A stretch of 64,000 nucleotides of DNA from Bacteroides cellulosilyticus (lineage in GTDB: Bacteria > Bacteroidota > Bacteroidia > Bacteroidales > Bacteroidaceae), in the NCBI RefSeq assembly GCF_020091405.1, contig NZ_CP081903.1, positions 2,976,501 through 3,040,500 on the forward strand, in the 5' to 3' direction. The notes under the pieces are model-generated. The model was not told the origin of the DNA, did not search any database, and saw only the letters and a list, made by a program, of their open reading frames with translations. The position numbers and the translations under genes are program-made. Below, piece by piece: positions 51,149 to 64,000 of this stretch (the first letter of the stretch is position 1; every line of letters begins with the position of its first letter).

Positions 51149-53413
51149 ATGGGAAAAGACAATAATGGACCCTATATCAGGCAGTTGGCGGAAAACGAAA
51201 ATCTGTACTCATACCTGCAAAGGCAGACGCTTGAAGAAGTGCACCGCCTCTCGGGAAAGGTATGGACGGATTTCAATGCCCATGATCCCGGGGTGACTCT
51301 GGCAGATATCGCCAACTATGCGCTGACAGAAATGGACTACAAGCTCGGTTTCGGTACGGTGGATTACTTGACCGGGGAAGATGGAATCTTCGAACCTGAA
51401 CGTTTCGGACTCTTTCCACCCGAAAAGGTGTATACCACTGCCCCTGTTACACCGGAGGATTATCGAAGACTGTTCTTCGCCCGCATTCCGGAACTGGAAA
51501 ACGTATGGGTGGAATGTAATGCGGCAACCGGCGGCTACACTGTCAAGATTGCTCTTTCCCCCTTTGAAGAAGAGGATAACGGAAAAACGGTGGTAAAGCA
51601 GGTTGCGAAGATTTACAACAGCCACCGTAATCTGTGCGAATACCTCGACAAGGTAATCATCGTACGGTCCGCAGAATTGGAATTTCATGCAGAATTTGAG
51701 ATAGAGCCGGGCAAAGATGCATCTATTGTGCTGGCGAAGCTCTATGAAACCATCTTGCATTATCTTTCCGGCGGAGTGTACGTCTGTGCACCGGAAGGGC
51801 TGGAAACCTCTGGCTTGTCACCCGAAGAGTGGTTGGAAGGGTCGGAAAGCATTGTGCGTGTGGTAATCCCCATGCAAAAGAATACCGAATATGAGCTATA
51901 TAAGAAACTTTGTCAGGTGGAAGGCATCCGGTCGTTCAGCACCTGCTACCTGATGAAGGATGGAAAGCCACAGACCGACTTCTCCGAAGGGTTCAGCTTG
52001 AAAATTCCATGTATGGAGAAAGAACTGAAAGTGCGTATCCGTCAGGGGCGCTCTGTTATGCGAGTCGATATGGAGAAGTTCGCAAGATATCTGAAAACCT
52101 TTTATTATGCTCAGAGGCGTATCAGCACGAATGAAAGCGACATAAAAGGAATTGGCTGGGGAAATATGACAGGAACATACCGCAACATTTTCACCTATTC
52201 CCCCATAGCCGGAGAATTCCCCGCATGTTACCGTCTCTCACCCGGACAGGAAACTCATGCTTCCTTTGAGGCATACTTGAAACTGTATGACCGAACAATA
52301 CAACAAGGATTGCAGGAAGTGAAGGAACTTCCGAACGTGCTTTCCATTGACGAGAAAGACATGGATTGTCATTCTTCCTTTCGGAATATCTATGCACTGA
52401 AAAGTCGTTATCTGGACTTTCTTGACCATCTGTACGGGGTAGAGAGCCAGCCCGAATGGTTGGAAGAGTCAAACTGCTATGGTGAAATGGAGAGTGAGAC
52501 GATTGGGCGGCGAATGTCATTCTTGCGCCATGTTGCCTATCTGATAAAAAATAGAGCAAAGGCGCGGGACATTACGATGTCGGAGGGAGAGCATAACGCC
52601 CCCATAGCGAAGGAGTGGTTTTGTAGGTTGTTGGGCATTAACGGAAACGAGGAACATACCGTGGGCAATGTTCTTCCCGGGCATAATCTACAACTGATAG
52701 AGAAGAAACCCGGCCGCCCCCTGGCGGACCGACTGGATGCTCTACTTATTGATGAACGTATACTGGAACCGGAGAACGTGACGACCGTAACTTATGAGCA
52801 ACTGGCAACGGATGAGGAAGGAAAGCATAAAGAATATAGTCAGTTAAGAGCGGAATTGCCGATATTCAACCGGAATAGAATAAGCGGCGACTTATTCCGC
52901 CACGGCATTTCTCTTGGTAACTACCGGATTGTAGAAGCTAAAAAGGATGAGTATCTGTTGGTGTTCCACAATAAGGAGAAAGGCGGATGGACCAATCTTG
53001 GACGTACCGATGACAAAAAGAGGTTGAATACGCTGGCGAACATCCTGCGGAGATATTTACTGGAATTGAACCGGGAGTGTGAAACGGTTTACGTATTGGA
53101 ACCGGTATTGGTGAGAAAAACGGAACCTTTCCGGCTACTGATTGTGCTCCCGATGTGGACGCTTCGTTTCCACTCGCCGCGCTTCAGGGAGATGTGCAGG
53201 GAATTATTGCGCTCTATTATTCCCGCTCACCTGGCAGGCCGGATATACTGGATGGATGAGATAAGTATGCAAGGTTTTGAACATTGTTACAAGTTATTAA
53301 TGAGGGCTTTGACCAACAGTGACTTGGCGGATTACAGCGCCCAATTGCTGGAAGTCATATACGAGTTGCTGGGCAAAGCGGTAGAAATACAGACATTGGA
53401 TGATACGAATTGA
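51149..53413 (+). CDS. Baseplate wedge protein (Afp12-like)
   Basis: A 754-residue baseplate assembly protein. The ATG at 51149 gives MGKDNNGPYIRQLAENENLYSYL; the frame is open further upstream but overlaps the previous gene. The motif VWTDFNAHDPGVTLADIANYALTEMDYKLGF is the standard 'DPGVTLLEL..YLTE' opening of the TIGR02243/Afp12 and TssF-like families. It forms the second wedge component with the 1071-residue protein. Its last 14 bases overlap the tape-measure gene. Confidence 0.83.
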   Translation: MGKDNNGPYIRQLAENENLYSYLQRQTLEEVHRLSGKVWTDFNAHDPGVTLADIANYALTEMDYKLGFGTVDYLTGEDGIFEPERFGLFPPEKVYTTAPVTPEDYRRLFFARIPELENVWVECNAATGGYTVKIALSPFEEEDNGKTVVKQVAKIYNSHRNLCEYLDKVIIVRSAELEFHAEFEIEPGKDASIVLAKLYETILHYLSGGVYVCAPEGLETSGLSPEEWLEGSESIVRVVIPMQKNTEYELYKKLCQVEGIRSFSTCYLMKDGKPQTDFSEGFSLKIPCMEKELKVRIRQGRSVMRVDMEKFARYLKTFYYAQRRISTNESDIKGIGWGNMTGTYRNIFTYSPIAGEFPACYRLSPGQETHASFEAYLKLYDRTIQQGLQEVKELPNVLSIDEKDMDCHSSFRNIYALKSRYLDFLDHLYGVESQPEWLEESNCYGEMESETIGRRMSFLRHVAYLIKNRAKARDITMSEGEHNAPIAKEWFCRLLGINGNEEHTVGNVLPGHNLQLIEKKPGRPLADRLDALLIDERILEPENVTTVTYEQLATDEEGKHKEYSQLRAELPIFNRNRISGDLFRHGISLGNYRIVEAKKDEYLLVFHNKEKGGWTNLGRTDDKKRLNTLANILRRYLLELNRECETVYVLEPVLVRKTEPFRLLIVLPMWTLRFHSPRFREMCRELLRSIIPAHLAGRIYWMDEISMQGFEHCYKLLMRALTNSDLADYSAQLLEVIYELLGKAVEIQTLDDTN

Positions 53414-56400
53414 CCATATATCGTTTGAGTTCGCTGCTGCGGACGAACGGTTCGTACACGACTTGTATGCGGACTGGGATGGCTTTTGCCGTAACTGTTT
53501 TGAAAAAACGGTGGATGAATGCTTTTCTCCTTTGGATAAGGACAGGGTGTTGCGTGAAATAGAATTGTTGGAACTGGATTTGGGTGGTATCCTCGAGGAG
53601 GACTTCTACCGTGAGTTTCCCCGGCGCCTCAAAGCGGAACTGCTGAAAGTGTTGCCTTCATGGGGCATACCGACAGAGAGCGAACGGAAAAAGACGGATG
53701 CTTCGCGCCTGGAAAATCTACTGTTCTATCTGGAACACGGTTATCAGAAGGTGGAATGGGACGACAGTGCTTTCGGCCTGACGGAAGAATTGGATTGGGC
53801 CGTTTCACAACAGGCACTTCATGCAGAGAGTATCGTATCTCTTTGTATGAAAAAAAATCACGCCTTGCGCCGTCTGTTATGGCAGACAAGTGATGACAAG
53901 GCTCTTATTCGGCTCTATGCCGACTTGCTTTCCACGTCATCGTTCGGCTTGCACGAGAAACGTCGTTTCCTTGCAATACTTCTGGAGATGAAACCCGGTA
54001 TACCCGTGCGTTTCATTCATGAGGATACTGATGATAACAGGCTGCAAGGTATGGCGGAACTACTCGATACGCTGTCCGTCCGTCGGATAATGGAAACTGA
54101 AACAGAAGAACATGCTGAAGTCGATCTGCCCCCATACTGGCATTATTTGTATGAATGGCTTATCAATTATTATCCCTTTAACGGGATTGCTATCTTCGGA
54201 GGCAAAGGAGATTTTATCTGTCATCTGCACCATCGGTTGCTCACATTCATCCGTAAGCGGAACTACTCTTTCTACCTCTCCAAACAAGAACTGACAGTCA
54301 ACTTCCTGCTTGAAGTCTTCGGGACTGATTACTATAGGGATGTATTAAATGCTATCTATGACCTCCAGCCGCACTATGCAGACGGTTCACCTGTGTATGA
54401 CGGATATTTAAACCGGGAGTTGTATCGTATCTTTTTACAACTTTCTCTACTTCGTCTGCCGATGGCGGGAGAAAGTCCGAAAGAGAAACTGGATTCCGGG
54501 TGGAAGCAAACGGCATATTCTACAGATATGGAAATGGTGGCAGAATATCTAAATGATACGCAGAAAAGTATAGCGGACAAACGAAGTTTATTCAGACTAC
54601 TGACAAAGGAAAAGCCGGAAATACTGATGGATTGGTTACAATCGGAGGCTGCCAAAGACAACGCTCTACTTAGTGTTATAGCTAATATGGTTGATACTGA
54701 TCTTCTCAACCGTCTGCTTTCTTCCGTTTCTTTCATGGCGATGGAAGTGGTTGACCAGGTAAGAACCTATCTACTGAACCATATATCGAAAACAGAATGG
54801 CTAAAAGGGATTTCCGAAACTCAGTTTAACTTTATTTTTTGCAAAGCAGTGTTACTTTGGATAGAAAACGAACACTGCGGTCTTTCGGAGTCGGAACGCA
54901 TCGAACAACTTCTGCATCAGTTCTATCAGGAGATTTCAAGTGGTAGTAATGAGTCTTCTATCAAAATATTATCTGAAAAATTGTACTTGTCGGAAGATGT
55001 TTGGAAGCAAGATGCAGGAAATGGTAAAATACGTGTTGACATTCTGAAACTTCGACAGATATTAGCCGACAAGAGTATACCGGAACTTGTAAAACGTAGA
55101 ATGACGGCATTGTTCTTGGAGCAATCCATAGAAAATGAAGAGAATGCCATATGGCTGTTACACGAGCATGAAGTATTGGAGTATACACTTACTTTAATAA
55201 GTGAGCCCGTTTTAGAAGAAATTATCAGGCAGTCGGTTGTGCGGATGAACGGTATATCCCATATTACAGAATTGTTATCCCTGTTTGATTGGCTGGTAAC
55301 TAACGAACAGGCCCTCTCAGCATATTTGAAGGATAGGACATCCGGACTGAAGGTACAGATGGTTTTATGGCTGGCAAAAGTTTCCCAATCGTCAATTAAG
55401 ATGGAGGGCACTGCGAGAGAAATTCTTTATTTACTTCTTATGGCATTGTTTGGCAAGGAAAATATACCGGTTGTCATTAAACAGATATTTCAAGGAAGTA
55501 TTAGGGAGACAGAAACCAGGAATGAGGAATATGATGATATGGAAGCAGTACTGGACTTGCTGATGACTATCGAGGCCGGTAACGGGAATCCTGCAAAAGT
55601 AAGGTTTGAGGAATGGGTACGGAAAACCAAAAAAGATTCCGACATCCTTCCCATACTGTTGGAAAACCGTTGGAGCGCTGGAAATGGCTTTACCGATTGG
55701 CTGGAAGACGCTACCATTTCTACAGATGGTAAGCGTGAGTTGTTACAGAGAATGGTTGTCGAAAAAGTACATGAATGGGTAGGTCTGCTACGTAGGCAAC
55801 CCGAAGAAAGCAAGGCTGTAATGTTTGTTGCAACCTATTTGTCAGCCCCTCTTCTTCTGCAAAGCGTGGCACAAGCGGACTTCCGTCAAGCAGCGGTATT
55901 GTCGGAAACGATTGAATGGCTGCAATGTAAAGCTGATAGGATTCCATTCCTTACCGGAAATGACAGGCTTCTTTCAACGGCTCTTTCTGAAGCATTGCTG
56001 TTCTTTATGCAAGATAGAGATACATTAGGTGGAAGATCCTTAACGGAAAAGGAGGTGGTAAAAAAATTCCTGGCTCATTTGTATTTTGTCTATACCGGAA
56101 AGACTGATTTCCAAAGCGATACGGAATGGACGAATTTACCGGTCAATCTGGCTGTTGACTTGGAAATGGAGGTATGGCAAGATGTACGGGAGGACGAGTT
56201 TGCTGATGTATTGTTACAAAAGAATATAAGCAATACCATATTCAGTCATCATATTGTTTCCGTTCTGGAAAAGTATCCGGAGAAATTTTTGGCATGGCTG
56301 GAGAAGGATGCTGATCTGGTTTTGATAAAACGGATTGTCGATGTATCGGATATAACCATACTGGGACAATTGAGTCTGTTTTTGTCTGCCATTGCAGGAT

Positions 56401-57599
56401 TTGAATATCCTGATGATTTCAGGCGGTTGACAGGCTGGCTCAGCCGATTCGCCAATGATCGGATATTTACTTCGGATATAACCAGAGTATTGCTGTTATG
56501 GGTAAGGGAAACAAATTGGAAAAAACAAACGCCGGAACAAATGGAAGATTATTTCATTTCCCGCCTGTTCGGTAAAAACGTAGCCCGATTACCGATAGAG
56601 TGGATTGCAGACAATACTTTGCCGGAAAGTGTACGAAAAAGAATGCTCTACAACCATATCTTCTTCCGACCGAAAGAACTGTTGGATTACATTCGTCAGT
56701 CTGTGGTACGGAATACATTGCATACAGATAAATGGTTGGAATGGATGAATACCGGAGAATGGCTGCGGCTGGTTGCAAGTCTGTCTCTTTCGCAAGCAGA
56801 ACTGTTGCAGCAAGTTATGGATTACATATTGATAAGTTATCCGGTTCAAAAGGAACATTTAGAGACGGCTCTGGCAACCTATATCATTGAAAATCCTTCG
56901 GAAGAATGGGCGTACAATAGCAGGGAAGAGAAAATCCGCTCATTTGTGAAATCACTTCCTATCCTGCAAGAAAAAACAGAAAATGAATTTAAAAACATAG
57001 TGAATATGATAAGTGAAAAATTAATGCCGGAAGAGGAAAAGAATTGGTTAACCGGCGAACCGATGTCTGACCCTAAAATATTCTTTATTGATAATGCAGG
57101 TCTCTGTCTGCTGTCTGCGTGGTTTCTCCGATTGCTGAGTATGCTCGATTATCTGAACGAGGCAAGGAAAGATATCAAAGATACGAAATCAAGAATTCGT
57201 GCCATATTCTTGCTACAATACCTCACTTACCAAGAAGAAAAGGAATACCGGGAAACAGAATTGGTGTTCAATCGTCTGCTTGTTGGGTTGCCGATGCATA
57301 TCCCGTTGCCAAAACGGCTGGAACTGACTGCCGAGGAAAAACAAATCGCTGACAGCTTACTATCGGCAGTAAAAGCGCACTGGTCCAAGATGAACGGAAC
57401 ATCGATGAAAGGATTTCTGCAAAGCTTTGTTACCCGTACAGGTCGCTTGGAGGAACAGGACGAAAAATGGGTACTTACCGTGGACGACAAGGCGTTTGAC
57501 ATCCTACTCGATTCCATCCCCTGGGGATTCCGGCAGATACGTTTACCGTGGCTGAAGAAATATATACAAGTAAAATGGCACGAGAAGCAGGAGTTCTGA
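53400..57599 (+). CDS. Contractile injection system tape-measure protein (Afp14-like)
   Basis: A 1399-residue, highly helical protein rich in Leu, Glu and Lys without membrane segments. The N-terminus (IRIDHISFEFAAADERFVHDLYADW, LREIELLELDLGGILEEDFYREFPRRLKAEL) matches the CIS tape-measure family of Bacteroidota eCIS loci. The C-terminus contains the conserved YLNEARKDIKDTKSRIRAIFLLQYLTYQEEKEYRETELVFNRLLVG in pieces and the PWGFRQIRLPWLKKYIQVKW ending. It sets sheath/tube length and probably fills the tube during assembly. It overlaps the Afp12-like gene by 14 bases. Confidence 0.8.
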   Translation: MIRIDHISFEFAAADERFVHDLYADWDGFCRNCFEKTVDECFSPLDKDRVLREIELLELDLGGILEEDFYREFPRRLKAELLKVLPSWGIPTESERKKTDASRLENLLFYLEHGYQKVEWDDSAFGLTEELDWAVSQQALHAESIVSLCMKKNHALRRLLWQTSDDKALIRLYADLLSTSSFGLHEKRRFLAILLEMKPGIPVRFIHEDTDDNRLQGMAELLDTLSVRRIMETETEEHAEVDLPPYWHYLYEWLINYYPFNGIAIFGGKGDFICHLHHRLLTFIRKRNYSFYLSKQELTVNFLLEVFGTDYYRDVLNAIYDLQPHYADGSPVYDGYLNRELYRIFLQLSLLRLPMAGESPKEKLDSGWKQTAYSTDMEMVAEYLNDTQKSIADKRSLFRLLTKEKPEILMDWLQSEAAKDNALLSVIANMVDTDLLNRLLSSVSFMAMEVVDQVRTYLLNHISKTEWLKGISETQFNFIFCKAVLLWIENEHCGLSESERIEQLLHQFYQEISSGSNESSIKILSEKLYLSEDVWKQDAGNGKIRVDILKLRQILADKSIPELVKRRMTALFLEQSIENEENAIWLLHEHEVLEYTLTLISEPVLEEIIRQSVVRMNGISHITELLSLFDWLVTNEQALSAYLKDRTSGLKVQMVLWLAKVSQSSIKMEGTAREILYLLLMALFGKENIPVVIKQIFQGSIRETETRNEEYDDMEAVLDLLMTIEAGNGNPAKVRFEEWVRKTKKDSDILPILLENRWSAGNGFTDWLEDATISTDGKRELLQRMVVEKVHEWVGLLRRQPEESKAVMFVATYLSAPLLLQSVAQADFRQAAVLSETIEWLQCKADRIPFLTGNDRLLSTALSEALLFFMQDRDTLGGRSLTEKEVVKKFLAHLYFVYTGKTDFQSDTEWTNLPVNLAVDLEMEVWQDVREDEFADVLLQKNISNTIFSHHIVSVLEKYPEKFLAWLEKDADLVLIKRIVDVSDITILGQLSLFLSAIAGFEYPDDFRRLTGWLSRFANDRIFTSDITRVLLLWVRETNWKKQTPEQMEDYFISRLFGKNVARLPIEWIADNTLPESVRKRMLYNHIFFRPKELLDYIRQSVVRNTLHTDKWLEWMNTGEWLRLVASLSLSQAELLQQVMDYILISYPVQKEHLETALATYIIENPSEEWAYNSREEKIRSFVKSLPILQEKTENEFKNIVNMISEKLMPEEEKNWLTGEPMSDPKIFFIDNAGLCLLSAWFLRLLSMLDYLNEARKDIKDTKSRIRAIFLLQYLTYQEEKEYRETELVFNRLLVGLPMHIPLPKRLELTAEEKQIADSLLSAVKAHWSKMNGTSMKGFLQSFVTRTGRLEEQDEKWVLTVDDKAFDILLDSIPWGFRQIRLPWLKKYIQVKWHEKQEF

Positions 57600-57625: not shown

Positions 57626-58219
57626 ATGGAAGCAGAGAAAGTACATCAGGAAAAAGTAGCACGTACCATACAGCAAAAGCAGGATGGCGGCGGTGCATTA
57701 CAATTTGTTGATAACCGTATGGTGAACACGCTTTTGCAACGTGTTGGCTTAGAGGATGAAGAAGGATTTCAGATGAAAACTGCCCAGTTACAGTCTGATG
57801 AGGAAGAAGATACCTTGCAGGGTAAATTTGAACCTACTGTTCAGCGTGCGGAAGACGATGAAGAGGGCTTGCAAATGAAAGCGGATACTGTATTCCAACA
57901 GAAACCGAATAATACCGGTCTGCCTGATAATCTGAAAGCTGGGGTCGAAAGTCTTTCGGGGTTTTCAATGGATGATGTAAAGGTACATTATAATTCTTCA
58001 CAGCCTGCCACTGTCCAGGCACTAGCTTATACGCAAGGAACGGACATCCATGTGGCACCCGGCCAAGAGAGGCATCTGCCCCATGAGGCATGGCATGTAG
58101 CCCAACAGCTGGCAGGACGTGTTGAACCTACTACGGAAGTGGGTGGTATGCCGGTCAACGACAATATAGGTTTGGAACATGAGGCAGACGTAATGGGTGC
58201 CAGAGCGAATAGCTTGTAA
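57626..58219 (+). CDS. DUF4157 (eCIS core) metallopeptidase-like protein
   Basis: A 197-residue DUF4157 protein. A charged, repeat-like N-terminus (DEEGFQMKTAQLQ, DDEEGLQMKADTVFQQ) covers about 1-95. The domain proper reads GLPDNLKAGVESLSGFSMDDVKVHYNSSQPATVQALAYTQGTDIHVAPG, then HEAWHVAQQ, with a true HExxH zinc motif at 153-157, and LEHEADVMGARA as the possible third ligand (Glu186 region). DUF4157 is a hallmark of eCIS loci and is found on particles or fused to cargo. Proteolytic activity is plausible but unproven. Confidence 0.88.
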   Translation: MEAEKVHQEKVARTIQQKQDGGGALQFVDNRMVNTLLQRVGLEDEEGFQMKTAQLQSDEEEDTLQGKFEPTVQRAEDDEEGLQMKADTVFQQKPNNTGLPDNLKAGVESLSGFSMDDVKVHYNSSQPATVQALAYTQGTDIHVAPGQERHLPHEAWHVAQQLAGRVEPTTEVGGMPVNDNIGLEHEADVMGARANSL

Positions 58220-58230
58220 AAGAATAGTCT

Positions 58231-59523
58231 ATGAATGAATTTATCGGATGGTTCAATCAAGTTCTGACTATTTCTATCCAGCTTTATTTCCAACAGGAGT
58301 GTGAATACTCCTCGCTGGAAGAAGTAAAACCACCTGTAAACGGATGGTTGGAAAAGGTGACTGGCATTCCTGACTTGACATTTGACGAACGGATGGTGGT
58401 CATGTTGGCGTTGATGCCGCATGTCTGTCCGCAGATACTGGACATCTTTTTTGTACAAAACAAGAACTTCGACCGACAATATACGGAATTCGGCGGTTGG
58501 AAAGGCTTGTCACATGGAGGTTTTCTGCCAACTGGTGAGACTGCCTCTTTTATCCTTGCCGGAGAAGATACGGAAAAACGGAAAGGGGTGATCCGGTTCT
58601 TCCAAAAGGATCACTGGTTCTACACAAAGAATATCCTCCGTCTGGAAGGTGCCGGAGAAAGTGAACCCTTTCTCAGTGGGCAATTGCGTGTATCGGAAGA
58701 ATTCCTAAGCCGTGTCTTGCTGGACAAGGAATATAAACCTGATTATAACATCGGCTTTCCCGCCAAACGCATTACCACTCAGCTGGAATGGGAAGATATG
58801 GTACTGGATTATCAGGTAGCTACCGAATTGGAAGAAATCAATGTATGGATTTCCTCCGGTAAGACTGTCATGGAGGATTGGGGACTGTCCCGTATTCTGA
58901 AAGCTGGATACCGTTCGCTGTTTTATGGGCCTCCGGGTACGGGAAAAACATTGGCTGCGACTCTTTTGGGCAAGAAGAACGAGATGGACGTGTACCGGAT
59001 AGACTTGTCCATGATTGTATCCAAGTATATCGGCGAAACGGAAAAGAACTTGGCAAAGGTATTCGACCTTGCCGAGAACCGGAACTGGATTCTGTTTTTT
59101 GATGAAGCGGATGCTTTGTTTGGCAAGCGTACATCCACCAATACATCCAATGACCGGCATGCTAACCAGGAAGTGGCTTACCTGCTGCAACGGATTGAGG
59201 ATTTTCCCGGCATGGTCATTCTGGCTACAAATCTACGCTCGAATATAGATGAGGCATTCTCCCGCCGTTTCCAGTCGGTGATTTATTTTCCGATGCCGAC
59301 GGAGGAACAACGGGCTGAGTTATGGCGGAATATGCTTCCAAGGAAATGGTTGGGAAAGGATGCAGAAGAGTTGATAACTATGGCAGCGGAAATGGAGCTT
59401 TCCGGTGGGTCTATTACGAATGTGGTGAGGCGGTGTGCATTACGTATGATCCAATCAAAGAAGAAACTGCTGGATAAAGTAATGTTGAAAGAGGCATTGC
59501 AGAAAGAAAAAATAAAATGTTGA
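58231..59523 (+). CDS. AAA+ ATPase of the eCIS (Afp15-like)
   Basis: A 430-residue AAA+ protein. An N-terminal helical domain (about 1-200) is specific to the Afp15/PVC15 type. Walker A GPPGTGKT is at 233-240, Walker B ILFFDEADALFG is at 287-298, and the arginine-finger/sensor region FSRRFQSVIYFPMP follows. These ATPases are needed for particle assembly or cargo loading in Afp-type systems; they are not sheath-recycling ClpV enzymes, which are much larger. It closes the eCIS operon 11 bases after DUF4157. Confidence 0.92.
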   Translation: MNEFIGWFNQVLTISIQLYFQQECEYSSLEEVKPPVNGWLEKVTGIPDLTFDERMVVMLALMPHVCPQILDIFFVQNKNFDRQYTEFGGWKGLSHGGFLPTGETASFILAGEDTEKRKGVIRFFQKDHWFYTKNILRLEGAGESEPFLSGQLRVSEEFLSRVLLDKEYKPDYNIGFPAKRITTQLEWEDMVLDYQVATELEEINVWISSGKTVMEDWGLSRILKAGYRSLFYGPPGTGKTLAATLLGKKNEMDVYRIDLSMIVSKYIGETEKNLAKVFDLAENRNWILFFDEADALFGKRTSTNTSNDRHANQEVAYLLQRIEDFPGMVILATNLRSNIDEAFSRRFQSVIYFPMPTEEQRAELWRNMLPRKWLGKDAEELITMAAEMELSGGSITNVVRRCALRMIQSKKKLLDKVMLKEALQKEKIKC

Positions 59524-59621: not shown

Positions 59622-61079
59622 ATGAGTACAATTTTGCAATTAGCTCCACAGAATGTGTGGAAGCATTTTTATTCGCTGACTCAAATTCCCCGTCCGTCCG
59701 GACATATGGAGAAAATAACAGAGTTCCTTGTAAACTTTGGAAAAGGCTTGGGCTTGGAATCATTTGTCGATGAAATAGGCAATGTTATCATTCGTAAGGC
59801 AGCTACTCCGGGTATGGAAAACCGCAAAGGCGTCATTCTTCAGGCACACATGGATATGGTGCCTCAGAAGAACAATGATACTGTTCACGATTTTACAAAA
59901 GATCCTATTGAAACCTATATCGATGGCGATTGGGTAAAAGCTAAAGGTACAACTCTGGGAGCTGATAATGGTCTGGGTGTTGCTGCTATCATGGCAGTGC
60001 TGGAAGATAATGGCTTGAAGCACGGTCCGCTGGAGGCTTTGATTACGAAGGATGAAGAAACAGGTATGTATGGTGCTTTCGGTTTGAAACCGGGGACACT
60101 GAAGGGGGAAATTTTGCTGAATCTTGACTCGGAAGATGAAGGCGAACTTTATATCGGTTGTGCCGGAGGTATTGACCTGACGGCTACACTGGAATATAAG
60201 GAAGAAGCGCCCGCTGCTGATTCTGTGGCCCGTAAGATTACCTTGAAAGGTTTGCGTGGCGGACATTCCGGTCTGGAAATAAATCAGGGACGTGGTAATG
60301 CCAATAAACTTTTGGCTCGCGTGGCACATGATGTGCTGATTGAATTTGATTCTCAGCTGGCAAGTTTCGAAGGTGGAAATATGCGTAATGCCATTCCTCG
60401 CGAAGCGTGTGCTGTATTGGTGTTCAATCCGGAAGATACGGAAGGGCTGGAAGAGTATATTAAAGAATATGAGGCGCAAATCAATGCGGAATATGCTCCA
60501 ATTGAAAGTGGCATTACTTTGACGATAGAGCCGGTTGAACTTCCTGCAGCTATTGTACCAGCTGAAATTCAGGACAATATGATTAATGTGCTGATGGCTT
60601 GTCAGGATGGCGTGATGCGTATGATTCCTACAGTGCCTGATACCGTGGAAACTTCATCTAATCTGGCAATAGTTATCATTGGTGGTGGTAAAGCGGAAGT
60701 ACGTATTCTGGCACGCAGTTCTTGCGATACGATGAAAGAATTCCTGGCAGACAGTTTGACGGCTTGTTTTGCCATGGCAGGTATGAAGGTAGAACTAAGT
60801 GGAGGATATTCCGGCTGGCAGCCTAATGTGGATTCTCCGATTTTACATGCTATGAAGCTGTCTTACAAGCAACAGTTTGGAGTAGAACCTGCTGTGAAAG
60901 TAATCCATGCAGGTTTGGAATGTGGTATTATTGGTGCTAATTGTCCGGGCTTGGATATGATTTCCTTCGGACCTACACTGCGTTCTCCGCATTCACCGGA
61001 TGAACGTGCATTAATTCCTACAGTTTCTAAATTCTACGATTTTCTGGTAGCAACACTGGAACAGACACCTGAGAAATAG
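59622..61079 (+). CDS. pepD: Cytosol non-specific dipeptidase (beta-alanyl-histidine dipeptidase family)
   Basis: A 485-residue M20-family metallopeptidase. Metal-site motifs are LQAHMDMVPQKN, TLGADNGLGVAAIMAV, ITKDEETGMYGAFGL and the late IHAGLECGIIGANCPGLDMISFGPTLRSPHSPDE. The LRGGHSGLEINQGRGNANKLLAR segment lies in the dimerisation lid domain. It hydrolyses a broad range of dipeptides in the cytosol. It is a housekeeping gene marking the end of the accessory block. It has its own promoter and a strong terminator. Confidence 0.95.
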   Translation: MSTILQLAPQNVWKHFYSLTQIPRPSGHMEKITEFLVNFGKGLGLESFVDEIGNVIIRKAATPGMENRKGVILQAHMDMVPQKNNDTVHDFTKDPIETYIDGDWVKAKGTTLGADNGLGVAAIMAVLEDNGLKHGPLEALITKDEETGMYGAFGLKPGTLKGEILLNLDSEDEGELYIGCAGGIDLTATLEYKEEAPAADSVARKITLKGLRGGHSGLEINQGRGNANKLLARVAHDVLIEFDSQLASFEGGNMRNAIPREACAVLVFNPEDTEGLEEYIKEYEAQINAEYAPIESGITLTIEPVELPAAIVPAEIQDNMINVLMACQDGVMRMIPTVPDTVETSSNLAIVIIGGGKAEVRILARSSCDTMKEFLADSLTACFAMAGMKVELSGGYSGWQPNVDSPILHAMKLSYKQQFGVEPAVKVIHAGLECGIIGANCPGLDMISFGPTLRSPHSPDERALIPTVSKFYDFLVATLEQTPEK

Positions 61080-61098: not shown

Positions 61099-61145
61099 AA
61101 AAGCGGGGAGAATGTTTTTTAGAACATTCTCCCCGCTTTTTTTAT
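61099..61145. terminator. Strong bidirectional terminator after pepD
   Basis: Two 18-base arms (61099-61116 and 61123-61140) pair perfectly around a 6-base loop; the core is AGCGGGGAGAATGTT. T-runs follow on the plus strand, and A/T flanks allow action on the minus strand. It would stop pepD transcripts and also transcripts leaving the invertible segment leftwards. Confidence 0.92.
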
Positions 61146-61169
61146 TTGATATTTTTATTTAAAAAAATG

Positions 61170-61190
61170 CCGTTACTTTATAGGTAACGG
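61170..61190. repeat. Left inverted repeat (recombinase site) of the invertible segment
   Basis: A 21-base site of the form CCGTTAC-TTTATAG-GTAACGG, itself a palindrome with a 7-base asymmetric core. Its exact reverse complement lies at 62590-62610. The flanks are not shared, so the repeat is exactly 21 bases. Confidence 0.93.
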
Positions 61191-61204
61191 CACAAAATAT
61201 GGTG

Positions 61205-61236
61205 CAAACATAAGTGTTTTTCCATAAATGTGCAAA
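61205..61236 (-). promoter_or_regulatory. Outward-facing promoter inside the invertible segment
   Basis: On the minus strand TTTG (61236-61233), 20 bases, then TATGTTTG (61212-61205) match the Bacteroides -33/-7 consensus exactly. The start point would be near 61198, only about 8 bases from the left inverted repeat. No equally good promoter on the plus strand faces the lipoprotein gene. Confidence 0.75.
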
Positions 61237-61301
61237 TAAAGCTGTTCTTTTTTCTATAATTCTTTAAAAAAAGAGTAATTGTATTCAAAAAACATTCAAT
61301 T

Positions 61302-62246
61302 ATGAAACAAAAATTATTATTGGAGATGCTATCCTCCACTATTCTGGAACTTCGTGCAAATGGCCAGTGGGGCACTGCACATGTATACCGGAGCGCGCGG
61401 AATTCTTTCTTTGCATTTAATAATAAGGATATACCGTTCTGCAAATTGAATTCGAACCTTTTGAAACGTTTCGAAATTTATTTGCGCCAGCGAAGATGTA
61501 GCTGGAATACGGTATCTACTTATATGAAGGTGCTCCGGGCGGTTTATAACCGGGCAGTAGATAATGGTTATGCCTTATACATACCAAGGCTTTTCAGACA
61601 TGTGCATACAAGTGTGTGTGCTGATCAGAGGAGATCTTTGGATGCTTCTGATATTGGTAACTTACTTTGTGAAACGGAGAAAGTACCCATTAATGGCACT
61701 TTGCCTTTAGATGTACAAAAAACAAAGATACTATTCGCACTTATGTTTTTGCTGCGGGGAATTCCATTTGTTGATCTGGTGTATTTGCGTAAGGCGGATA
61801 TTCAGGATAATATTCTGAGATACCGTCGGCGGAAAACCGGTCGACCATTGACGGTGGCGTTGACGCCTGAGGCTATGAGGTTGATTCGGATGGTGGCTAA
61901 TACAGATCAGAATTCTCCTTACTTATTCTCTTTCTTATCCAGTCCTGAAGGCACTGAAACGGCCTATCATGAATATCAATCGGCATTGAGGGCTTTCAAT
62001 TATAAATTGTCTGTATTGAAGAGATGGATGGGAAGTCATGCCCATCTAAGTACGTATACTATTCGTCATACGTGGGCAACAATGGCTTATCATTGTGAAA
62101 TACATCCGGGTATCATATCAGAAGCAATGGGACATTCATCTATCAAGGTTACGGAAACTTATTTGAAGCCTTTTCAAAATCAAAGGATAGATCAAGCCAA
62201 TCAAGAAGTTATCTCTTTTGTGAAAGGGCATGCTGCTGTCTGCTAA
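61302..62246 (+). CDS. Tyrosine site-specific recombinase (probable DNA invertase)
   Basis: A 314-residue phage-integrase-family recombinase of the short Bacteroides type. The N-terminal SAM-like DNA-binding domain is at about 1-105 (FEIYLRQRRCSWNTVSTYMKVLRAVYNRAVDNGY). The catalytic domain has Arg in LRGIPFVDLVYLRKADI, Lys near RRKTGRPLTVAL, the TYTIRHTWATMAYH box and EAMGHSSIKVTETYL with the nucleophile Tyr. The linked inverted repeats at both ends and the absence of other mobile-element genes suggest a Tsr/Mpi-like invertase, not an element integrase. Its own promoter is not clear. Confidence 0.88.
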   Translation: MKQKLLLEMLSSTILELRANGQWGTAHVYRSARNSFFAFNNKDIPFCKLNSNLLKRFEIYLRQRRCSWNTVSTYMKVLRAVYNRAVDNGYALYIPRLFRHVHTSVCADQRRSLDASDIGNLLCETEKVPINGTLPLDVQKTKILFALMFLLRGIPFVDLVYLRKADIQDNILRYRRRKTGRPLTVALTPEAMRLIRMVANTDQNSPYLFSFLSSPEGTETAYHEYQSALRAFNYKLSVLKRWMGSHAHLSTYTIRHTWATMAYHCEIHPGIISEAMGHSSIKVTETYLKPFQNQRIDQANQEVISFVKGHAAVC

Positions 62247-62589
62247 AGATTGGGGCGGATTTTATAGAGTTTCATTATAAAACGCTGATATTTGACTGTT
62301 CTAGAAATACAAATAATCAGCTAATTTCCTGGGATATTTTCTCCGGTTGTTTTTCCTATTTCCTTTCTTATAGCTTATGTGTCGCGTGTATGTTATTGTA
62401 TATCAGTAAAATATTGTATTTTTCTTTAGTGGGTTTTATCAAATATTCCTCTTTCTCACTCTATTCTATGTACTCTTTTCTTACAAATTAGTTTGATAGG
62501 TAATCTCTCCCATGTTTCGACATATTATTTGACTAATAAAAGACTTTTCCTGGAGTTTTTTCATACTTTTTTCTTTTTATTCAACAATT
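62247..62589. other. AT-rich non-coding part of the invertible segment
   Basis: This 343-base stretch between the recombinase stop and the right repeat holds no convincing gene. It contains several partial promoter-like motifs, for example TATTTTTC and TACTTTTT, but none with a correctly spaced -33 pointing at the lipoprotein gene. In the inverted state it would lie next to pepD. Confidence 0.5.
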
Positions 62590-62610
62590 CCGTTACCTAT
62601 AAAGTAACGG
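62590..62610. repeat. Right inverted repeat (recombinase site) of the invertible segment
   Basis: The site reads CCGTTAC-CTATAAA-GTAACGG and is the exact reverse complement of 61170-61190. It lies 80 bases upstream of the collagen-like lipoprotein start codon. Confidence 0.93.
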
Positions 62611-62690: not shown

Positions 62691-64000
62691 ATGAACAAAA
62701 AATTTCTAAGTGCAATCCTGTTCGGGGCTTTAATGGTTGGCTCTGCGGGGACATTTACGTCTTGTAAAGACTACGATGACGACATTGACAGTTTAGATCA
62801 GCGAGTAACTGCTGTTGAGAAGCTTGTTAGTGATCTTCAAGCACAGATTAAGGATGGTGCTGTTATAACAGATGTATCATCTACTGCAACCGGAGTTACT
62901 GTAACTTTAAGTAACGGAAAGACATTTAATTTGACTAATGGTACTAATGGCACTAATGGTACTAATGGTGCAGATGGTGCACCTGGTTCTGTTGTGACAA
63001 TCGGTGATAATGGTAATTGGTATATTGATGGTGCCGATACAGGAAAACCTGCTCGTGGTGAGAAGGGTGATAAAGGCGACCAAGGCGATAAGGGTGACCA
63101 GGGTGATAAAGGCGACCAAGGTGATAAGGGTGACCAAGGTGATAAGGGTGACCAAGGTGATAAAGGTGACCAAGGTGATCCGGGGGTATCAGCGCCTACT
63201 ATCTACTATTATCCTGGAACTGAAGGTGCAGAGGCTGGCTATTGGGTAAAAGTAACTATTACTCCTGATGGTACAGAAAGTAAATCTGTCACTTCAGAAA
63301 CATGTTTGCCAAAGGGGACGGTTACTGCTATATGGGATACAGAAAACGGCTATTTGATTCTTAATAATGTAGCTGGTACTGACGAGCCGGTTAAAATAAA
63401 GTTAGTTGATACCTTGCGTTCTCTAGCTTTTGTGCCACAAGTCATAGATAAAGGTTTAGGTATGGGCGTTATTGATTTTTATTCAATATTAGTTCCCGAT
63501 AAAACAGTTGCTGGTAAAATGAATTTTGTTGCTACCAATACTCCGATTGTTACTTACCGCCTGAATCCTCATAATGCAGATGTGAAAAATGTAGAATGGT
63601 CTTTCATTAATCGTGTAGTAACGACTCGTGTTGCTGGTGATAATACTAATTTACTTTCTATTGTGAGCAAAGAAGCTGGTGATAAAGGTGGCTGGAATTT
63701 TGTGGTGAAGGCTAACAATAACTTGGCAAGCTTGGCCGCTAATCAAGAAGCTATTGTTGCTTTACAGGCATACAATAAGGATAATATGTCTGAAATTGTT
63801 TCAGACTATGCAGTAGCTAATATTAAGGATTTGAAAGATTTTAGTATTGCAAAGAAACATTTACTGGGAACAGGGGTTTCTTATTATACTACAATAAAGA
63901 GTTCTGCAATAGTAGACTATAAATTAGTATATAACAAATCTGTTAAATTGAAAGATTTGGTAGAAGCTTGGGAAACTAAAGAGGTGATGAAGAGTCTTGT
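62691..64000 (+). CDS. Collagen-like surface lipoprotein (partial)
   Basis: The frame starts at 62691 and is open to the window end (436 residues). The signal sequence MNKKFLSAILFGALMVG leads to a lipobox FTSC, followed by KDYDDDID, the acidic tract that sends Bacteroides lipoproteins to the cell surface. A short coiled coil (LDQRVTAVEKLVSDLQAQIKD) follows, as in DUF4988/PL29-N-type lipoproteins. Then come NGT triplets and a collagen-like stretch with six GDKGDQ units. The rest, beta-rich, is unrecognised. It lies just outside the right inverted repeat, so its expression probably depends on inversion. Confidence 0.85.
   Translation, partial: MNKKFLSAILFGALMVGSAGTFTSCKDYDDDIDSLDQRVTAVEKLVSDLQAQIKDGAVITDVSSTATGVTVTLSNGKTFNLTNGTNGTNGTNGADGAPGSVVTIGDNGNWYIDGADTGKPARGEKGDKGDQGDKGDQGDKGDQGDKGDQGDKGDQGDKGDQGDPGVSAPTIYYYPGTEGAEAGYWVKVTITPDGTESKSVTSETCLPKGTVTAIWDTENGYLILNNVAGTDEPVKIKLVDTLRSLAFVPQVIDKGLGMGVIDFYSILVPDKTVAGKMNFVATNTPIVTYRLNPHNADVKNVEWSFINRVVTTRVAGDNTNLLSIVSKEAGDKGGWNFVVKANNNLASLAANQEAIVALQAYNKDNMSEIVSDYAVANIKDLKDFSIAKKHLLGTGVSYYTTIKSSAIVDYKLVYNKSVKLKDLVEAWETKEVMKSL
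63066..63173 (+). repeat. 18-bp tandem repeat coding (GDKGDQ)6
   Basis: Six 18-base units (GGTGATAAGGGTGACCAA and variants) encode Gly-x-y triplets. Silent differences exist between units. The repeat is preceded by GEK and followed by GDPG, extending the Gly-x-y run. A shorter NGT repeat lies at about 62937-62972. Confidence 0.95.

Follow-up and report, generated by a model that had tools for sequence, protein, structure and literature searches.

A putative self-contained promoter-inversion switch carrying its own tyrosine recombinase, next to a surface lipoprotein gene in Bacteroides cellulosilyticus, and related loci in Bacteroidales

A 1,441-bp segment bounded by inverted repeats at positions 61170–62610 very probably constitutes a self-contained phase-variation switch, in which a tyrosine recombinase encoded inside the segment flips the promoter of a neighboring surface lipoprotein gene. 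This interpretation was reached from the DNA sequence of the locus and its relatives. In this paper, "the window" refers to the whole 64,000-nt stretch of the Bacteroides cellulosilyticus genome that was analyzed. The features of the locus are as follows.

59622–61079, plus strand: aminoacyl-histidine dipeptidase (M20) gene, a bystander gene on the blind side
61099–61140, no strand: strong hairpin terminator separating the switch from the dipeptidase gene, able to serve either side, with an 18-bp perfect stem
61159–61193, minus strand: predicted OFF-state exit terminator, formed by the hairpin of the left site and a T-run just outside the segment, from terminator scoring on the exit strand
61170–61190, plus strand: left recombination site, CCGTTAC-TTTATAG-GTAACGG, with 7-bp half-sites and a 7-bp asymmetric spacer
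61205–61236, minus strand: predicted Bacteroides-type promoter, TTTG-N20-TATGTTTG, by motif match, pointing left, out of the segment and away from the lipoprotein gene
61302–62246, plus strand: tyrosine recombinase of 314 aa with the Pfam domains Phage_int_SAM_5 and Phage_integrase
62247–62589, no strand: non-coding part from the recombinase stop codon to the right site, with a single weak terminator-like stem of 5 pairs at 62329–62346
62590–62610, minus strand: right recombination site, a perfect inverted copy of the left site
62691–64000, plus strand, continuing past the window (889 aa in the genome): target gene, a surface lipoprotein with a signal peptide, SCKDYDDDI, DUF4988, collagen-like repeats and a beta-rich Ig-like body

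In the proposed mechanism, the recombinase would recombine the two perfect 21-bp sites and thereby invert the segment. The window is predicted to hold the OFF state, as a preliminary description of this DNA had suggested, with the promoter motif facing the dipeptidase side instead of the lipoprotein gene. Transcription would start near 61198, run toward the dipeptidase side, and be stopped by the site hairpin with its T-run and then by the 18-bp hairpin. After inversion, the start would lie at about 62582, and the lipoprotein gene would be driven from there; the distance to its ATG, calculated from the positions of the sites, is 109 nt, in agreement with the earlier estimate of about 110 bases. 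In the ON state, the site hairpin would stay in the leader without the T-run, and the terminators of the dipeptidase side would now lie ahead of the recombinase gene.

The perfect 21-bp inverted repeats on which the preliminary description was built are present at 61170–61190 and 62590–62610, and the other elements that it placed around them were also recovered: the intact open reading frame of a tyrosine recombinase between the repeats, with its family domains and catalytic residues; the outward-firing promoter just inside the left repeat, at the motif level; the strong terminator beyond that repeat, at 61099–61140; and the surface lipoprotein gene beyond the right repeat, with its ATG at 62691. 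Each site is a composite of CCGTTAC, a 7-nt non-palindromic spacer and GTAACGG. Apart from these two sites, no exact inverted repeat in the 64-kb window combines arms of ≥ 15 nt with a spacing of 100–3,000 nt. Among 20 Markov-resampled controls, no arm exceeded 16 nt, and two of the 20 contained a single pair whose arms reached ≥ 15 nt. The exact 21-mer is found at just these two places in the whole genome (6.94 Mb); four more places resemble it, with three mismatches each, and near-matching sites adjoin three other recombinases, where the half-site or the spacer differs from that of the window. The preliminary description noted paired GTTAC and GTAAC half-sites as recurrent in such sites, and the window site fits the consensus CCGTTACCTABVRAGTAAC that PMC12118408 gives for the S-layer switches of B. 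theta.

Related loci were collected by scanning named genomes, which yielded 54 loci; 158 genomes of the genus, with matches in 110; and 393 genomes of the order, 6 of which had strong matches (E up to 1e-90). The examination covered all of these named loci except L064, a 47-residue match (53 of 54), together with 40 regions fetched from relatives. In at least 24 of the examined loci, the recombinase lies inside a segment bounded by inverted repeats (the window, L012–L018, L020–L022, L025, L035, L039, L043, L123, L124, L126, L155, L158, L159, L161, L168, and L170), and the named hosts of this inside type belong to the Bacteroidaceae, Rikenellaceae, Odoribacteraceae, and Muribaculaceae. In most of the 24 loci, a lipoprotein of the SCKDYDDDI type or similar adjoins the segment, with the promoter motif pointing out. 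The spacers vary among loci (CTATAAA, CTGCGAA, CTACAAA, CTCTAAA, CAACGAA, CTACGGA, and others) and are shared by both sites of one locus, which is what recombination would need; this agreement is partly selected for, because most loci were found through exact inverted repeats.

A tree was constructed from 90 recombinases after rows shorter than 270 aa or with a query alignment span of < 230 residues had been dropped and identical proteins merged. In 50 of the 90 rows, the recombinase was of an outside type, standing beside a promoter-sized inverton with 223–402 nt between its arms; the target of such an inverton can be a lipoprotein of the same kind as in the window, as at L141. Eighteen rows were unlabelled, some of them from contig ends or with imperfect or missing sites; among them was L161, which proved on inspection to belong to the inside type. 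A group of 28 rows comprised 20 inside, 8 unlabelled and no outside recombinases, with moderate support (91/79), and a neighboring group of 30 rows comprised 28 outside and 2 unlabelled recombinases (99/97). The other two of the 22 labelled inside rows, the SusC-linked L043 and L170, branch nearby, in an order that the tree leaves unresolved. The inside and outside states required two changes among the labelled rows, and a single inside clade was not rejected (p-AU 0.444). Self-contained recombinase segments were also observed before SusC/SusD-type genes at L169:7449–8546 and L170:5696–6788, one in each orientation. Three recombinases of the inside group (L127:8418–9371, L132:1385–2314, and L136:1473–2402) had one site or none and no promoter motif; these loci, together with the second unit of L125 described below, are apparently decayed switches.

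The promoter motif lies 14 nt inside the left site. A match to TTTG-N20-TATGTTTG alone is not rare, as 1.0 is expected per window and 2 were found. Its position, on the other hand, is conserved: all 17 aligned loci have, without variation, CAAA-N-ATA and CAAA on the recombinase strand, which are the −7 and −33 boxes when read from the opposite strand. This alignment covered 17 of the 24 loci and left out the near-copies L012 and L123 as well as L159, L161, L168, L043, and L170. The motif is present too in L161, L043/L169, and L170, and in L159 the −7 box is kept with no exact −33 box.

In the window, the site within the predicted leader forms, in both orientations, a hairpin with a folding energy of about −14 kcal/mol. 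CA and seven T come after this hairpin in the OFF state, whereas TATATAATG would come after it in the ON state. The hairpin at 61099–61140 folds at about −30 kcal/mol on either strand. The asymmetry of the T-run extends to the relatives: the longest T-run was greater on the blind side than on the gene side in 16 of the 18 one-sided loci (nominal p = 0.0013, in a test that counts related loci separately, although the loci of one lineage are not independent). When the loci were grouped by hand into 11 sets, nine were for the pattern, one was against it and one was mixed, the gene side being unseen in one of the nine (L158). T-runs of ≥ 5 occurred on the blind side in 11 of the 18 loci and on the gene side in none. 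The pattern is reversed in L039 and L170, and in L018, which has a surface gene on each side, a run of six T lies on both sides. The site hairpin may thus terminate transcription on the blind side. Earlier work cited in PMC4747536 associates lower transcription in B. fragilis with a larger number of inverted repeats between the promoter and the gene.

The residues R152, K178, R255, H278, and Y287 are invariant in all 15 aligned recombinases (that of the window and 14 relatives), and Y252 occupies the H position of the HxxR motif. The dN/dS of the recombinase against three relatives is about 0.05–0.08, which indicates purifying selection.

The target protein begins with a lipobox-like start (SCKDYDDDI). 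The predicted model of residues 182–889 is beta-rich, with a mean pLDDT of 88 and a pTM of 0.51, and its structural matches are generic and cadherin-like, with weak matches to cadherins and Sap S-layer chains. The next downstream ORF of ≥ 120 aa encodes an alpha-2-macroglobulin family protein. Outside the lipoprotein body, the DNA of the locus is 95–100% identical to that of B. timonensis AP1, the last block being cut by the end of the fetched locus. The start of the lipoprotein gene is conserved between the two and the flanks are well matched, whereas the identity of the gene body falls to about 55–68% between about 62.75 and 65.3 kb. One version of the lipoprotein is shared by the window and B. 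cellulosilyticus DSM 14838 (L013; 98% identity), and a second, about 29% identical to the first, by B. timonensis (L012) and L123 (99.5%). With the lipoprotein of L124 as a third, three versions occupy one locus in five close genomes. The recombinases pair crosswise to the lipoproteins, i.e., that of the window with B. timonensis (99.7% identity, against 96% with DSM 14838) and that of DSM 14838 with L123 (98.4%). Because of this crosswise pairing among close genomes, the surface part of the lipoprotein looks to have been swapped as a unit, or cassette.

The orientation of the segment was then compared among relatives, as the preliminary description had proposed. Opposite orientations were found between L017 and L035, where three flanking proteins are 97–100% identical, a fourth flanking ORF 70% and the lipoprotein 82%, and between L015 and L155, where the flanking protein is 91% and the lipoprotein 70% identical. 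Between L169 and L170, the recombinase is oriented oppositely relative to a 90%-identical SusC gene, the only flank that the two have in common. In contrast, the four nearest relatives at the locus of the window (L012, L013, L123, and L124) all have its orientation; at this locus, the comparison thus gives half of the outcome that the preliminary description had named as speaking against a switch. B. oleiciplenus L014, which lies beside the same dipeptidase gene and has surface genes on both sides, is also in the orientation of the window. Among the 18 one-sided loci with a visible gene, 15 are predicted to be OFF and 3 (L015, L017, and L170) ON.

Five of the 24 loci (L014, L016, L018, L159, and L168) are two-headed, with an outward surface gene on both sides, and a flip in these loci would swap which surface protein is made. 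In L018, the two lipoproteins are 41% identical, and 392 nt of identical DNA adjoin the site; those of L016 share mainly their first 60 residues (72%), and those of L159 are alike over the first 63–79 residues (42%) and a further stretch at 28%. In L168, the two target lipoproteins are 87% identical to each other; a scan of one of them identified a TIG domain, and the recombinase is spread over two ORFs. The two lipoprotein copies of B. oleiciplenus (L014/L125) are identical and lie in a perfect 3,193-bp inverted duplication. Beside this switch there are a third lipoprotein, a second recombinase, which is diverged and about 5 kb away, and a single site with the same spacer, the whole arrangement lying at L125:4048–17705; this second unit has no promoter motif. 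Recombination among the three sites could reach the third gene. A third SCKDYDDDI lipoprotein, of 1,249 aa, was also observed beyond the two-headed switch of an Odoribacter MAG (L154:13920–17669).

Other accounts of the segment have to be weighed against a switch flipped by its own recombinase. A different recombinase encoded in the genome could flip the promoter segment in trans, which would make the one inside a passenger. Sixteen further stretches of the genome (L096–L111) match the window recombinase; among the ten next-best matches, eight (L096–L103) were labelled by script as adjoining a promoter-sized inverted repeat of about 280–400 nt, and PMC4747536 describes the B. fragilis invertase BF2766 as acting on both a local and a distant site. 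Nevertheless, we regard flipping in trans as quite unlikely: the exact site occurs only here, the near-matching sites beside other recombinases differ in half-site or spacer, and the inside recombinase is under purifying selection and has been kept within the segment in loci of four families. We infer that the sites are acted on by the window recombinase rather than by any of these 16 other stretches. The segment could also be a small mobile element that landed by chance before the lipoprotein gene, because a recombinase between inverted repeats describes many such elements as well, and the second, diverged recombinase of B. oleiciplenus is of the same kind and close by. This explanation is highly improbable in view of the single site pair in the genome, where the next-best recombinase is 45% identical, and of the lipoprotein and outward promoter motif that adjoin the segment in most of the 24 loci; moreover, the sites have the composite form of half-site, spacer and half-site, and relatives that do not belong to this group of loci adjoin promoter-sized invertons.

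A further explanation concerns the present state of the locus rather than its nature, i.e., the switch may be inactive here and fixed in its present orientation. In favor of this, all four of its nearest relatives have the orientation of the window, and apparently decayed forms exist among the relatives (L127, L132, L136, and the second unit of L125). The perfect sites and the intact recombinase with its low dN/dS argue against fixation, which we consider unlikely, and the excess of predicted OFF states among the one-sided loci would also fit a biased switch. In cultures of B. theta, for comparison, about one cell per 1,000 is reported to have BT1927 switched ON (PMC12548429).

The proposed self-flipping switch resembles the known invertible-promoter switches of Bacteroidales (the BT1927 S-layer and capsule loci, and BF2766/Tsr19 of B. 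fragilis) in its related recombinase, its GTTAC-N7-GTAAC sites, the position of the promoter in the flipped segment and a target that is a surface structure. In those systems, however, the recombinase lies outside a segment of mostly 250–300 bp, whereas in the window it lies inside a 1.4-kb segment, divergent from the promoter. The switch segments of B. xylanisolvens, for example, are given as 289–290 bp (PMC12118408). The BT1927 S-layer switch also differs in having an OmpA-like barrel gene downstream, and the window target lacks the OmpA-like partner seen at L135. Lipoproteins with such a partner align with that of the window over the first ∼50 residues only, with a probability of 22%.

The Hin segment has an outward promoter, and the system also includes a co-expressed repressor and a Fis-type enhancer. 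The Salmonella Hin gene lies within the segment that it inverts (PMC5903667), and the recombinase of the window likewise lies inside a segment bounded by inverted repeats, which it would invert itself; Hin is a serine recombinase, whereas that of the window is, by its domains, a tyrosine recombinase. The two-headed loci L016, L018, and L159 resemble the sap locus of Campylobacter fetus, in which one promoter flips between opposed S-layer genes with shared 5′ ends; the window locus has a gene on one side only. The sap inversion depends on homologous recombination over long shared 5′ regions, and its segment carries transport genes and is not known to carry a site-specific recombinase. For a defined gut community with B. 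cellulosilyticus DSM 14838 among its members, an inverton survey states that nearby recombinases are generally not driven by the promoter of the inverton, with one possible exception, and it pools recombinases that overlap an inverton with those within 5 kb (PMC11892184). The parts are known from the promoter switches of Bacteroides, and a recombinase inside its own segment is known from Hin; the loci described here would be a tyrosine-recombinase variant found across Bacteroidales, with a two-headed form.

We tentatively propose, as a view to which we give slightly less than an even chance, that these loci represent a lineage of self-carrying cassettes that extends across Bacteroidales and has so far gone undescribed, each cassette having a tyrosine recombinase that inverts its own gene along with one promoter, the one-headed forms turning a gene on or off and the two-headed forms choosing between two proteins. 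In this proposal, the site would be a terminator on the blind side only, and would thus serve as crossover site, leader hairpin and insulator. The location of the recombinase inside the segment makes it testable whether the switch sets its own flipping rate by orientation, because each flip would give the recombinase a new downstream region, the lipoprotein gene in the predicted OFF state and the terminators in the ON state. In gut symbionts, the two-headed forms would select one of two surface proteins, with possible consequences for the encounters of commensals with phages and complement. A cassette of about 1.4 kb with all of its parts is also a compact candidate genetic toggle for Bacteroides.

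Upstream of the dipeptidase gene, an ORF containing a DUF4157-like stretch (HEAWHVAQQ) and, after it, one for an AAA+-like ATPase occupy the window region 57626–59523, an arrangement that resembles extracellular contractile injection system clusters. These are preceded by an ORF of 1,399 aa at 53400–57599.
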